NCBI RefSeq assembly: GCF_007004735.1
Contig: NZ_ML660182.1
Location: forward strand, 676,130 to 740,129
Direction of reading: 5' to 3'
Length of the DNA stretch: 64,000 nt
Origin: Salinigranum halophilum
GTDB lineage: Archaea > Halobacteriota > Halobacteria > Halobacteriales > Haloferacaceae
Translations under genes and position numbers: made by a program
Shown here: positions 40,007 to 44,508 of the stretch, piece by piece
How positions within the stretch are numbered: position 1 is the first letter of the stretch
How the letters are laid out: each line of letters starts with the position of its first letter
Notes under the pieces: model-generated
The model's input: only the letters and a program-made list of their open reading frames with translations
What the model was told of the DNA's origin: nothing
Database searches by the model: none

Positions 40007-40390
40007 CTACTCGCGCGTCGCGCCGGCCGACGTCGAGTCGTCGGCGTCCTCGGCGTGTTCGTCCGTCCCCGCCGTGTCGCCTCCCGCGGCCGTGTCGTCG
40101 CTCCCCTCGGCAGCCGATGCCGTGTCGGCCGTCGCCGCGCTCTCGGCTTCGGAGATGTGCGCCTCCGCGACCAGTGCGTCGACGTCGATGCCCTCGTGTT
40201 CGGCGAGCGCCGCGAGGATGGCGCGCTGTTCGGCCACCTCGTTCTCGAGCCGGTCGACTCGCTCGTGGGTCTCCGTGACCGTCTCGCGCATCTCCGCGAC
40301 CTGCGTGCGGAGTTCGTTGATCCGTTTGTACAGCTCTTCGCCCATCTCCGCGACTTTCTGGAGCTTCTTCGCGGTTCCGCCGATTCCCAT
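40007..40390 (-). CDS. DUF5798 family coiled-coil protein
   Basis: 127 residues from the ATG at 40390 (MGIGGTAKKLQKVAEMGEEL). The first 80 residues form a coiled coil (ELRTQVAEMRETVTETHERV, then DRLENEVAEQRAILAALAE), followed by an Ala/Asp/Thr/Glu disordered tail. The opening GxGxTAKKLQKVA is diagnostic of the haloarchaeal DUF5798 family. The coiled coil suggests oligomerisation; the role is unknown. The gene is convergent with the CoA-binding protein (14 bp apart) and lies 53 bp downstream of the ABC cassette on the same strand. Confidence 0.88.
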   Translation of the reverse strand: MGIGGTAKKLQKVAEMGEELYKRINELRTQVAEMRETVTETHERVDRLENEVAEQRAILAALAEHEGIDVDALVAEAHISEAESAATADTASAAEGSDDTAAGGDTAGTDEHAEDADDSTSAGATRE

Positions 40391-40443
40391 ACCCCTGCGT
40401 GTGACCGCCGCCCTTGTGTGCGTTCCGCTTGTATCCGCCCACC

Positions 40444-41502
40444 TCACGACAGCGTCGCGGGGTCGACCCGTCGCGTCACCCACCGTAGGCCGAGGTACGC
40501 GCCAGCGCCAGCGACGGCGACGGCACCGACGGCGGCGGCGCTCGTCGGGTCGGCGCTGTCGATGGCGAGTCGCGCGGCGACGTTGGCCGGGTTCACCGGG
40601 AGGACCGTCGACCCGCCGAAGACGAGCAAAACGGCGACGGAGTACAGCAGTTGGGCGGTCCGACGGTCGGGCGAGACGATGGCGAGCGCCAGCGCGACCG
40701 AGACCACCAACAGGGCGAGCGACGCGACGAACGCGACCAGCAGCGCGGGGTGGGAGACGCTCGTGCCGTTCAGCCGGAGGAGGCCGACCCAGAGCGCGGC
40801 CTGCGTGGGCGCGAGCCCCGCCGCGGCCAGCAACTTCCCGTCGACGATGTCACCGAACGAGACGGGGGCCACCCTGAGCAGTTCGAGCGTGCCGCGGTCG
40901 CGTTCCTCGGTGAGCGAGTCGACGGCGAGTGACCCGCTGATGAACACCGGGAGGAACAACAGGAGCGGAACGAGGACGGTGTAGGTGAAGCCGAAGTACG
41001 GGCTCGACGTCCCCTGTCGCGGGAGATCGAGTGGGACCCGCTCGAGCGAACTCGCTCGTTCTGTGCGCTCTGTGCGCTCGAACGCCTGGAGCACCTCCCG
41101 GACCTGGACCACCGTGACGGTCGTCTCGATGTTCGAGTCGGGGACCGTCGCCCGGACGAACGTCCGGCCGTCGCGTCGCTGGGCCACGAGGACGGCCTCG
41201 ACGTCACCATCCTGGAAGGCGGCGAGCGCCGCCTCCCTCGTCTCGTACGGCACCGGCCGCACGCCGGGCTGGTCGTTCATGACGCCGAGGAGTTCGCGCG
41301 CTTCCTCCTCGGAGCCGCTGAGAGCGACGTCGACCTGATACCCCTGGACGCTACCGGGGTCGTACAGCGAGACGAGCCCGACGACGAGGAACGAAGAGAA
41401 CGCGGCGATGAACACCTGGATGAGCAGCGCGAGGACGATGGTCTTCTCCGCCTTCAGCACCTGCAGTTCCCGTCGGGCGATGGTGAGCGAGCCGTCAGCC
41501 AA
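40444..41502 (-). CDS. ABC-2 type permease of a three-gene exporter cassette
   Basis: 352 residues. TM1 (about 20-45) is followed by an extracytoplasmic segment of about 130 residues, and then five TM helices from about 178. SLAVDSLTEERDRGTLELLRVAPV (about 190-213) is the typical ABC-2 motif (LxxEKExGTLEQLL) of NatB/YhaP-type exporters. LVFGGSTVLPVNPANVAARLA precedes the last helix. The gene overlaps the PrsW-fusion permease by 8 bp, so the two permeases and the upstream ATPase are coupled. The substrate is unknown; NatAB-type systems export Na+ or peptides. Confidence 0.88.
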   Translation of the reverse strand: MADGSLTIARRELQVLKAEKTIVLALLIQVFIAAFSSFLVVGLVSLYDPGSVQGYQVDVALSGSEEEARELLGVMNDQPGVRPVPYETREAALAAFQDGDVEAVLVAQRRDGRTFVRATVPDSNIETTVTVVQVREVLQAFERTERTERASSLERVPLDLPRQGTSSPYFGFTYTVLVPLLLFLPVFISGSLAVDSLTEERDRGTLELLRVAPVSFGDIVDGKLLAAAGLAPTQAALWVGLLRLNGTSVSHPALLVAFVASLALLVVSVALALAIVSPDRRTAQLLYSVAVLLVFGGSTVLPVNPANVAARLAIDSADPTSAAAVGAVAVAGAGAYLGLRWVTRRVDPATLS

Positions 41503-43285
41503 GGAGCGTCACCACCGTGAGGTTGTAGGCCGTGTGAACGAGAATCGCGGCTCCGAGCCCGACGAGATACCACCGGAACCCCTTCCGAGCGCCGAGCGCC
41601 GACAGCGACGCCGTCACGACGTGGAGGACGAGCGGCGCGGCGAGCAGCGCGAGCGCGACGGGGAGCGCCTCCACGCCGACGGTCCCGGCGGGGGCGAACG
41701 CCGCCCGGCCGACCGCGAGGTCGGGGAGGCCGACGAGTTGGATGACCGCCGTCGCCTTCTCGCCGGCGAAGAACCCCACGCCGGAGGCCGCCCCGACGGC
41801 GAGTGTGGCCGGGAGCGAGGACGCGAACCGGCCCTTCTCGAAGCCGGCCAGCACGTGGAGGCTCTTCGCGACCTCTTCGACGAGCGCGACCACCACGAGG
41901 ATGACCGGAATCGAGACGGCGATGGGGAGTGCGAAGAGAACGGCGATGCCGAGCAGTTCGGCGACGAAGACGAACGGGATGGAGAACGCGGAGACGAGCG
42001 CCACCGAACCGTTCCCCGAGAGCCGTGCGTCGAGCGCGTCGAGGAACTTCAGCGGGACCGACCGCTGTGTGAACATGTCCTCCTCCCGGTAGACGCCGAT
42101 ACCGAGGAGGAAGAGGAGTACCGAAGAGAGGTAGATGGGGCCTGTCGAGAACAGGTACGCCGACGGGTCGACCGCGGCCCCCTGGAGGTCGCGGACCACG
42201 AGCGACAGCGGCGAGATGAGCGCGATGGGCGTGACGTTCGTAAAGATGGCCGGGACGAACGCGTAGGAGGTGAGGAACACCGAGACGGAGACGGTGACGA
42301 AGGTGAGTTCCTTGAACGACCGGGCGAACATCGCGCCGACGAACGTCGCCGCCAGGAACAAGAGCGCCAGCGGGACGACGGCGGCGACAGCGACGACCCC
42401 GCCGCCGACGAGGAGTGCGATACCCGCGGTCACCGCGACCATCGCGGTCAGGTACGGAAGCGTCTTCCCGGCGACGATGTCGCTCGGGGCGACGGGCGCG
42501 ACGAGGAGGAGTTCGCCCCGCCGGTTCACCCGCTCGTTGAGGACGGTCGAACCGTACGCCTGGATGACGAAGTTCATCGGCACCAAGAATGCGAACGCGA
42601 GGACGAGCGACCCGAACGGGAAGGGTGGGTCGATGTCCGCCGGCGACCCGGTCGAGTCCTGTGCGAAGACGCTGGCACCGATTCCAGGGATGGAGAGCGG
42701 CCCCTCCTGGGTGCCGACCGGGTCTCCGTCACCGGAACCCTCGGGGGAGACACTGCCGCCGTCTCCCGTCGCGCCGGACCCACCAGCACCCGTCGTGTCG
42801 CCGCGGTTCTCGGTCGTCGGCGTCGCGACGACCGCTTCGTCGCGTGCCGCGTAGGTGAGCGAGACCACGACGGGGAACGCCGCCGACTGGTTCGGTTCCG
42901 CGCGCATCGCCCGAACGTTGTGTCGTTCGACGCTCGCGCGGAACGCGGCCAGCGCGGCCTCACCCTTCGGGGTCTCGCGACTGACGACGCGCCCGTCGAC
43001 GACGAGCAGGTCGAGGTCACCCGCGACGAAGGCGGCTTCGCTGGCCGGCCGGGTCGCGAGCGACGTACTCGCGGCGACGGGGTCGTGATACGGGCTCGAC
43101 GCGTCGACGCCGACACGGTAGAGGTCGCGGTCGAGGGCGACGCCCTGGGTGAGGACGCCGGCCCCGAGGACGCTCCCGACGACGACGAACGCCACGAGTC
43201 CCATGATGACAGTCCGCCTGTCGACGACGGCGGCCGACCGACTCACCTCCCAGCGCGCGATGCGCGCGACGGCGCGCGGTCTCAC
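41495..43285 (-). CDS. ABC-2 permease fused to a PrsW-type intramembrane protease
   Basis: 596 residues, much larger than a normal ABC-2 subunit. Residues 1-390 look like an ABC-2 permease: TM1 at about 28-48, a long extracytoplasmic loop (about 50-215, Gly/Ser-rich near 165-185), then NFVIQAYGSTVLNERVNRRGELLLVAPVAP (about 238-267) and several TMs. Residues about 400-596 are a PrsW-like domain: EEVAK (470-474), FFAGE (505-509), His555 and HTAYN (584-588), the motifs of this glutamic-type membrane protease family. An exporter subunit with a built-in protease suggests that it processes what it exports or a signal. Overlaps its neighbours by 4 and 8 bp. Confidence 0.82.
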   Translation of the reverse strand: MRPRAVARIARWEVSRSAAVVDRRTVIMGLVAFVVVGSVLGAGVLTQGVALDRDLYRVGVDASSPYHDPVAASTSLATRPASEAAFVAGDLDLLVVDGRVVSRETPKGEAALAAFRASVERHNVRAMRAEPNQSAAFPVVVSLTYAARDEAVVATPTTENRGDTTGAGGSGATGDGGSVSPEGSGDGDPVGTQEGPLSIPGIGASVFAQDSTGSPADIDPPFPFGSLVLAFAFLVPMNFVIQAYGSTVLNERVNRRGELLLVAPVAPSDIVAGKTLPYLTAMVAVTAGIALLVGGGVVAVAAVVPLALLFLAATFVGAMFARSFKELTFVTVSVSVFLTSYAFVPAIFTNVTPIALISPLSLVVRDLQGAAVDPSAYLFSTGPIYLSSVLLFLLGIGVYREEDMFTQRSVPLKFLDALDARLSGNGSVALVSAFSIPFVFVAELLGIAVLFALPIAVSIPVILVVVALVEEVAKSLHVLAGFEKGRFASSLPATLAVGAASGVGFFAGEKATAVIQLVGLPDLAVGRAAFAPAGTVGVEALPVALALLAAPLVLHVVTASLSALGARKGFRWYLVGLGAAILVHTAYNLTVVTLLG

Positions 43286-44181
43286 CGAGTCGCCTCCGCG
43301 CGGGGGTCGGACGCCAGTTCGCGGCCCGCGATGTCGAGAAAGAGGGCTTCGAGGCTCGGTTCCTCCGTTCGGATGTCGACCACGCTGCCGCCTGCGCTTG
43401 CGGCCGCCTCACGAACCGAGTCGACGGCGGTCATGTCCTCGACGACCGTCACGTGGTCGTCGCCGGCGGGGTCGCTCTCGGGGAGCGGGACGGTCGTGAA
43501 CACGTGGTACGTCGTCGAACCGTGTTCGGCGCGGATGTCCGCGACGGTGCCGCGGGCGACGATTTGCCCGCGGTTCATGATGACGACGCGGTCACAGACG
43601 CTCTCGACGTGGTAGAGGTTGTGCGCCGAGAACACGACGGTCTTGCCTCGGTCGGCGAGTTCGCGCGTGAACTCCAGGACGTAGTTGGTCGTGAGCGGGT
43701 CGAGTCCGGAGGCGGGTTCGTCGTAGATGAGCAGGTCCGGGTCGTTGACGAGCGACCGCGCGATGGCGACCTTCCGTTTCATCCCCTTCGACATGTCACC
43801 CAGTCGGCGCTCGCGGTGTTCGAGTTCGAGGCGGTCGAGCGTCTCCTCGGTTCGCTCGCGGGCCACCTCGCGCGGCACGTCGTAGAGGTCGGCGAAGAAG
43901 CGGAGATACGACCGCGGCGTCATGTCCTCGTACAGCGGCGACTCCTCCGGGAGGAAACCGAGCGAACGGCGCATCTCGGCGTCGCCGGCATCGTGGTCGC
44001 CGACGCTCGCTGTGCCTCCCGACGGCTCGACGAGGCCGGCGAGCATCTTCAGCGTCGTCGTCTTCCCCGCGCCGTTGGGGCCGACGATGCCGAATATCTC
44101 CCCCCGCTCGACCGCGAAGTCGCTCCCGACGACGGCCGGAAAGTCCCCGTAGGTCTTGCGGAGGCCGCTGACGCGTATCAT
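43282..44181 (-). CDS. ABC transporter ATPase of the exporter cassette (NatA/CcmA-type)
   Basis: 299 residues. Walker A GPNGAGKTT (about 34-42), Q-loop region SLGFLPEESPLYEDMTP (about 83), signature LGDMSKGMKRKVAIARSL (about 132-149; 'SKGMK' in place of LSGGQ), Walker B LLIYDEPASGLDP (about 154), H-loop VVFSAHNLYHVES. The C-terminal 90 residues form an accessory domain found in NatA-like ATPases. Coupled by 4 bp to the PrsW-fusion permease. The cassette promoter is described separately. Confidence 0.93.
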   Translation of the reverse strand: MIRVSGLRKTYGDFPAVVGSDFAVERGEIFGIVGPNGAGKTTTLKMLAGLVEPSGGTASVGDHDAGDAEMRRSLGFLPEESPLYEDMTPRSYLRFFADLYDVPREVARERTEETLDRLELEHRERRLGDMSKGMKRKVAIARSLVNDPDLLIYDEPASGLDPLTTNYVLEFTRELADRGKTVVFSAHNLYHVESVCDRVVIMNRGQIVARGTVADIRAEHGSTTYHVFTTVPLPESDPAGDDHVTVVEDMTAVDSVREAAASAGGSVVDIRTEEPSLEALFLDIAGRELASDPRAEATR

Positions 44182-44224: not shown

Positions 44225-44238
44225 TCTCACGCGTGAGA
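44225..44238. promoter_or_regulatory. perfect 14-bp palindrome TCTCACGCGTGAGA upstream of the ABC cassette
   Basis: TCTCACGCGTGAGA is a perfect palindrome with its nearest edge about 10 bp upstream of the TATA element of the ABC exporter cassette and 70 bp upstream of the small protein gene at 44308. It is a good candidate for a repressor or activator binding site controlling one or both divergent units. Confidence 0.5.
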
Positions 44239-44307
44239 ACGGACTGGCGCGGCGCGGTCCGTCCGACCGGCGATACACACAAGACGGTGGACAGTGGATT
44301 GACAGAT

Positions 44308-44463
44308 ATGGGTGAACTCACCGTCATCAGAGCCGACGGTACCTGGCATCGCACGGACATCCTCGGGTGTTCGTACGCCGACGTCGCCGTGGTCGACGAG
44401 GAACGGACTGTCGACCGCGACGGGCTGTCGGAACTCGACCGCTGTGAGACGTGTACGTGGTAG
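44308..44463 (+). CDS. small haloarchaeal protein, 51 residues, CETC motif
   Basis: ATG at 44308 to TAG at 44461-44463. The peptide starts MGELTVIRADGTWHRTDILG and ends in CETCTW. Two more features, GCSYADVAV and an acidic VDEERTVDRDGL, look like a compact beta protein with a possible metal site. The residue mix is normal for the genome, not shadow-like. It is divergent from the ABC exporter cassette and convergent with the aldolase gene, 45 bp away. Function unknown. Confidence 0.65.
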   Translation: MGELTVIRADGTWHRTDILGCSYADVAVVDEERTVDRDGLSELDRCETCTW

Positions 44464-44508
44464 ACGAGGCCGCGAGAAGACACCGCGAAGGCGTCGGTCG
44501 GCGCTGAC

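Follow-up and report, generated by a model that had tools for sequence, protein, structure and literature searches.

An ABC-2 permease fused to a PrsW-type intramembrane protease in a conserved three-gene cassette of Halobacteriota

In this analysis, we have followed up one gene of the window, as we call the whole 64,000-nucleotide stretch of the Salinigranum halophilum genome under study, and find that its 596-residue product is a single chain that joins an ABC-2 permease half to a PrsW-type intramembrane protease half. Such a fusion had been proposed in a sequence-only reading of the stretch, and it is now supported by Pfam matches of orthologs, a profile-profile comparison, the predicted fold and the invariance of the active site. 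We expect, with a probability of roughly one half, that the protein takes part in a heterodimeric ABC-2 exporter with a catalytically competent PrsW-type protease built into one half, which would cleave what the exporter moves or extracts, the substrate being encoded elsewhere in the genome.

Table 1. Positions in the window of the fusion gene, its two halves and its two partner genes, with the evidence for each assignment
Feature	Coordinates	Strand	Evidence
ABC-2 permease / PrsW-type intramembrane protease fusion	41495..43285	-	ORF; 140 aligned homologs; AlphaFold2 model, mean pLDDT 78
ABC-2 permease half of the fusion, residues ~1-410	42056..43285	-	ABCA1/ABCA4/NosY fold; perm2 profile match; Pfam ABC2_membrane_3
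PrsW-type protease half of the fusion, residues 425-596	41498..42013	-	profile match; PF13367 in orthologs; APH-1-like fold; invariance
Second ABC-2 permease (perm2), 352 aa	40444..41502	-	PF12698, E 5.7e-20
Exporter ABC ATPase, 299 aa	43282..44181	-	PF00005, E 9.8e-29

The fusion gene starts with GTG and overlaps the gene for the second permease (perm2) by 8 bp and that for the ATPase by 4 bp; its boundaries, its length and both overlaps agree with the sequence-only reading, which had given no strand. The ATPase also matches the drrA-like model TIGR01188 of NCBIfam at E 1e-70, under that model's cut-off. An ORF on the opposite strand (41408-43615, plus) has a charged, low-complexity translation with no family resemblance on inspection, and we regard it as a by-product of high-GC coding sequence. 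Immediately downstream of perm2 lies a DUF5798 coiled-coil gene (40007-40483, minus), in which the Pfam match begins at residue 32, so that the true start is probably inside the listed ORF.

The N-terminal half has the six-helix fold of an ABC-2 permease and is accompanied by a partner permease and an ATPase. In the model, a cytoplasmic elbow helix (residues 3-20) is followed by transmembrane (TM) helices at 23-45, 224-254, 267-292, 297-320, 324-347 and 374-398, with a large extracytoplasmic domain (residues 46-223, including a disordered insert at 136-220) between TM1 and TM2. Structural matches of this half lie at Z 15-18, with Z 17.8 to ABCA1/ABCA4 and Z 16 to NosY, and a profile built from it matches the perm2 family at E 3.2e-8. 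The window protein reaches Pfam ABC2_membrane_3 below threshold, over residues 226-363 (E 0.0043, 16.6 bits, cut-off 31.6), and a match to the same family at E<=0.01 is seen in 27 of 44 family members.

With both ends of this half predicted to be cytoplasmic, the C-terminal half would enter the membrane from inside. Basic residues concentrate in the predicted cytoplasmic loops 399-424, 484-490 and 567-572 and are scarce in 518-540, and the model places the motif residues of the protease near the middle of their helices. In this predicted topology the protease site lies mid-membrane and probably opens towards the extracytoplasmic side.

The three genes form a coupled unit, as had been proposed from their overlaps, and this is borne out by the order in which they are kept across loci and by the joint absence of perm2 and the fusion. 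A scan of named genomes yielded 80 haloarchaeal loci, in 77 of which ATPase, fusion and perm2 follow one another on one strand, with perm2 downstream of the fusion, whereas 18 of 20 other loci combine a divergent ATPase gene with adjacent fusion and perm2 genes (ATPase orientation compared between loci L031-L110 with L190 and loci L170-L206). Of 16 further genomes, whose copies are more distant, nearly all show the divergent arrangement as well. G332, the one genome sister to the haloarchaea, is arranged as they are, and we therefore place the flip of the ATPase gene, from divergent to co-directional, at the haloarchaeal stem. Perm2 was lacking in every one of the 25 genomes tested that have no fusion, and it was found in each of the six tested that carry it (E <= 5.3e-106).

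Genome searches for the fusion covered the phylum Halobacteriota. At E<=0.001, matches were found in 216 of 292 species of the haloarchaeal class, or about 212 when a few weak ones are set aside, and in 206 of 393 Halobacteriota species genomes, where nearly all were strong and many lay outside the haloarchaea. About 70% of the sampled haloarchaeal species thus carry the fusion, as do many methanogens and other Halobacteriota; the sequence-only reading had haloarchaea in mind, and the true range is far wider. Methyl-coenzyme M reductase scored above its curated cut-off in 20 of 37 closely examined non-haloarchaeal genomes, which marks these as methanogens or their close kin, while one large non-haloarchaeal family (f21) is without that enzyme. 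Nearly all of these genomes hold the fusion as a single uninterrupted frame, some 520-640 residues long. In the fusion tree, the haloarchaea form one group adjoining the copy of G332, a placement that fits mainly vertical inheritance as read from these sequences.

Several copies stand apart as individual cases. The G332 copy (G332:C5, L190) is split over two frames, either because the gene is broken or through an error in the assembly, the genome being incomplete. Halorussus salinisoli carries the fusion twice in one species (L045, L050). A search of plasmids found the cassette only in Haladaptatus, where the 540-kb plasmid NZ_CP085330.1 of Haladaptatus salinisoli (L241) bears the whole of it, so extrachromosomal carriage is possible.

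The sequence-only reading had also suggested looking for a small ORF near each copy, and here the genomes did not follow: neither a small ORF nor any other gene was found to travel with the cassette from genome to genome, and the remaining neighbours are lineage-specific. Of the two functions which that reading had suggested, maturation of an exported peptide and cleavage of a membrane regulator, either may apply. With no conserved neighbouring substrate gene, the substrate is presumably, and in our view probably, encoded elsewhere. The candidate nearest at hand, a 51-aa ORF at 44308-44463 (plus) that diverges from the ATPase gene, accompanies just 2 of the 80 haloarchaeal cassettes and was rejected as the substrate. 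Its product contains three cysteines (GCSY...CETCTW) and looks like a small soluble protein, possibly metal-binding; it is 76% identical to a counterpart in Salinigranum salinum (L102) and 51% identical to one in Halogeometricum limi (L041), and is absent from the remaining haloarchaeal loci compared. The overlapping ORF 44230-44508 (minus) is probably its shadow. Archaeosortase A (TIGR04125), considered as a functional partner, was uninformative, since each of the 48 genomes has it whether or not the cassette is present. One genome of the same genus (G292) has 26 matches to the CPBP/Rce1 family, the window's genome 9. From the wide occurrence of the cassette, its role would seem to be a general one and not of the immunity type.

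We propose that the product of the single ATPase gene would act as a dimer, with perm2 supplying one transmembrane half of an ABCA/NosY-like exporter and the fusion protein the other, and with the PrsW-type protease as a C-terminal extension of the latter half. A substrate that bears a peptide or is embedded in the membrane would be moved or extracted at the expense of ATP and cut at the neighbouring mid-membrane protease site, and export or extraction and cleavage would thus take place in one complex. We infer the assembly of the complex, the direction of export, the proteolysis itself and the class of substrate. More tentatively, and with the odds somewhat against it, the cassette may represent an ancient, phylum-wide class of Halobacteriota ABC exporters in which one permease half is an intramembrane protease and the ATP-driven extraction of peptides or helices from the membrane and their cleavage form one reaction, that is, an energy-coupled intramembrane protease.

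The ABC-2 half may export or may only sense. The main rival to the exporter-protease we propose is one of regulated proteolysis. Here the ABC part would sense or carry a ligand, such as an antimicrobial peptide, and by cycling between conformations would activate the PrsW domain to cut a membrane-bound regulator, by analogy with Bacillus subtilis PrsW, whose site-1 cleavage of the anti-sigma factor RsiW is tied to antimicrobial-peptide resistance (PMC4602095). That no exported-peptide gene is linked to the cassette speaks in favour of such signalling; on the other hand, no regulator gene is kept beside it across genomes either, and it occurs in lineages with very different regulators. We consider signalling of this kind a possibility to be kept in mind, if a doubtful one.

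Both readings so far take the C-terminal domain to be proteolytic, and it is the conservation of the predicted active site that bears on this. In the alignment of 140 homologs, some of them very divergent, 20 of the 596 positions are invariant (100%), and these include all six predicted active-site residues, E470, E471, K474, E509, H555 and H584. The hypergeometric probability of this outcome is 6e-10, a rough guide in that positions are treated as independent and as having equal chances of being invariant. Within this alignment, the active site of the protease half is under strong constraint, and the PrsW-type domain appears catalytically competent and presumably cleaves a substrate. The structural comparison could nevertheless be read otherwise. 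The predicted structure of this half (mean pLDDT 89) has its top three structural matches at Z 10-11. Two of them are APH-1 chains of gamma-secretase and the third is a human BOS complex chain, with Z 11.0 over 162 residues for the APH-1 fold, and the domain might then play a non-proteolytic part in the exporter, as an APH-1-like scaffold or as a module that holds the substrate, APH-1 being a non-catalytic subunit of gamma-secretase. If the domain were purely a scaffold, one would expect some active-site residues to have been lost, whereas all six are retained even in the very divergent homologs, and we find this explanation unlikely. The PrsW/CPBP superfamily is moreover recognised to include APH-1 (PMC4602095). 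Among helical bundles a Z of 11 is a moderate value, so that the APH-1-like fold of the model supports the PrsW identity without proving it. Foldseek gave neither model a match in the PDB at E<=0.001; the CAAX protease Rce1 was absent among the chains it listed, which excludes nothing, and a PDB sequence search with the window protein and PDB profile searches returned nothing relevant.

As to which intramembrane protease family is represented, the motifs EEVAK (470-474), FFAGE (505-509), H555 and HTAYN (584-588) sit at the residues where they were first noticed, and they provide motif 1 (E470, E471, K474), motif 2 (F505/E509), motif 3 (H555) and motif 4 (H584/N588) of the protease half. Since the window protein alone gave no match to PF13367 (PrsW) in a single-sequence Pfam search, and none at all in NCBIfam, this half was tested through its relatives. 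Orthologs reach PF13367 (cut-off 23.5 bits) on the C-terminal stretch, for example with 33.2 bits in G004 and, in two genomes of the window's own genus, 30.5 (G294) and 27.0 (G292). Compared with a stand-alone PrsW profile built from 30 haloarchaeal PF13367 proteins, the C-half profile scores a probability of 96% (E 2.6e-9), with EE..K, F...E, the motif-3 histidine and H..YN aligned between the two, against 7.7% (E 0.0045) for CPBP proteases and 0.1-0.5% for perm2 or the N-terminal half of the fusion. A search with the C-terminal half alone also retrieves genes for stand-alone PrsW, at E values from about 1e-9 to 5e-4, while no free-standing copy of the fusion's own PrsW subtype was seen, the strong matches all lying in fused-length frames or in the broken G332 copy.

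PrsW proteases are characterised by an EExxK motif and by an extra conserved histidine that CAAX proteases lack (PMC4602095). In the fusion, E470, E471 and K474 lie in the middle of TM helix 455-483, and the invariant H555 lies in helix 541-568, which precedes the last core helix. Two features depart from the published descriptions. Motif 4, described as HxxxD on the last core helix (eLife 2015, PMC4602095), is HxxxN in the fusion family, with H584 invariant and N at position 588 in 94% of members and D in some; haloarchaeal stand-alone PrsW proteins that pass PF13367 also show HxxYN. About eight TM helices are typical of most PrsW representatives (PMC3482391), whereas the model of the C-terminal half has a four-helix core with one or two short helices.

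A CPBP/CAAX-type (Rce1-like) domain, which would make this protein a member of the known ABC-2/CPBP fusion family NF041647, shares the same general design, and perm2, rather than the fusion, matches NF041647 weakly, at 36 bits where the cut-off is 435. The fusion itself has no match to that model at E<=1 and falls outside a family defined by the 435-bit cut-off and a CPBP domain, and with the PrsW traits and profile probabilities given above, we hold a CPBP assignment to be very improbable. Finally, that the last 200 residues are merely extra ABC-2 helices with motifs arisen by chance, a reading favoured by the failure of the window protein alone to match PF13367, is already contradicted by the ortholog matches, the profile comparison and the invariance and deserves almost no credence. 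The two outcomes that the sequence-only reading had named as refuting it, a C-terminus resembling ABC-2 helices alone and a family of single-domain origin lacking the PrsW motifs, were thus both looked for, and the results went against them.

Intramembrane proteases are generally regarded as independent of ATP. A protease placed inside one half of an ABC exporter, with its active site kept across Halobacteriota, suggests that ATP may drive the delivery of substrate to an intramembrane active site, and the system is testable in Haloferax, a genus with species that carry the fusion. Annotation is also corrected: the one named record examined, the Haladaptatus ortholog WP_227356692.1 at NCBI, is called 'ABC transporter permease subunit', and a membrane protease has probably been missed in many archaeal genomes.

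In the literature searched, which did not extend to subscription papers, we found no description of an ABC-PrsW fusion. The parts seen of two reviews of haloarchaeal proteases list the stand-alone PrsW HVO_0408 and no ABC fusion (PMC9263693, PMC4343526), and PrsW domains joined to toxins and to other domains have been described (PMC3482391). Provisionally, then, the ABC-2/PrsW fusion is undescribed, while ABC-2/CPBP fusions are already a named NCBI family. That family, NF041647 (ABC permease/CPBP protease), likewise combines an ABC-2 permease and a C-terminal intramembrane protease in a single chain in an ABC exporter setting, and both protease halves belong to the wider CPBP/PrsW/APH-1 superfamily, but that of the fusion is of the PrsW type, with EExxK and the extra histidine. 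With PrsW itself (PF13367; the B. subtilis site-1 protease and the haloarchaeal stand-alone proteins), the fusion shares EExxK, FxxxE, the motif-3 histidine and HxxYN/D in the same order, whereas its domain sits behind an ABC-2 permease, spans about 170 residues, has HxxxN instead of HxxxD and shows motif 2 as FFxGEK. APH-1 resembles the C-terminal half in fold but is non-catalytic in eukaryotes and has no ABC part. NosFY, ABCA1/ABCA4 and DrrAB share with the cassette a six-helix permease, an extracytoplasmic domain between TM1 and TM2 and a DrrA-like ATPase, whereas the cassette has an obligate pair of unlike permeases, one of which carries a protease.
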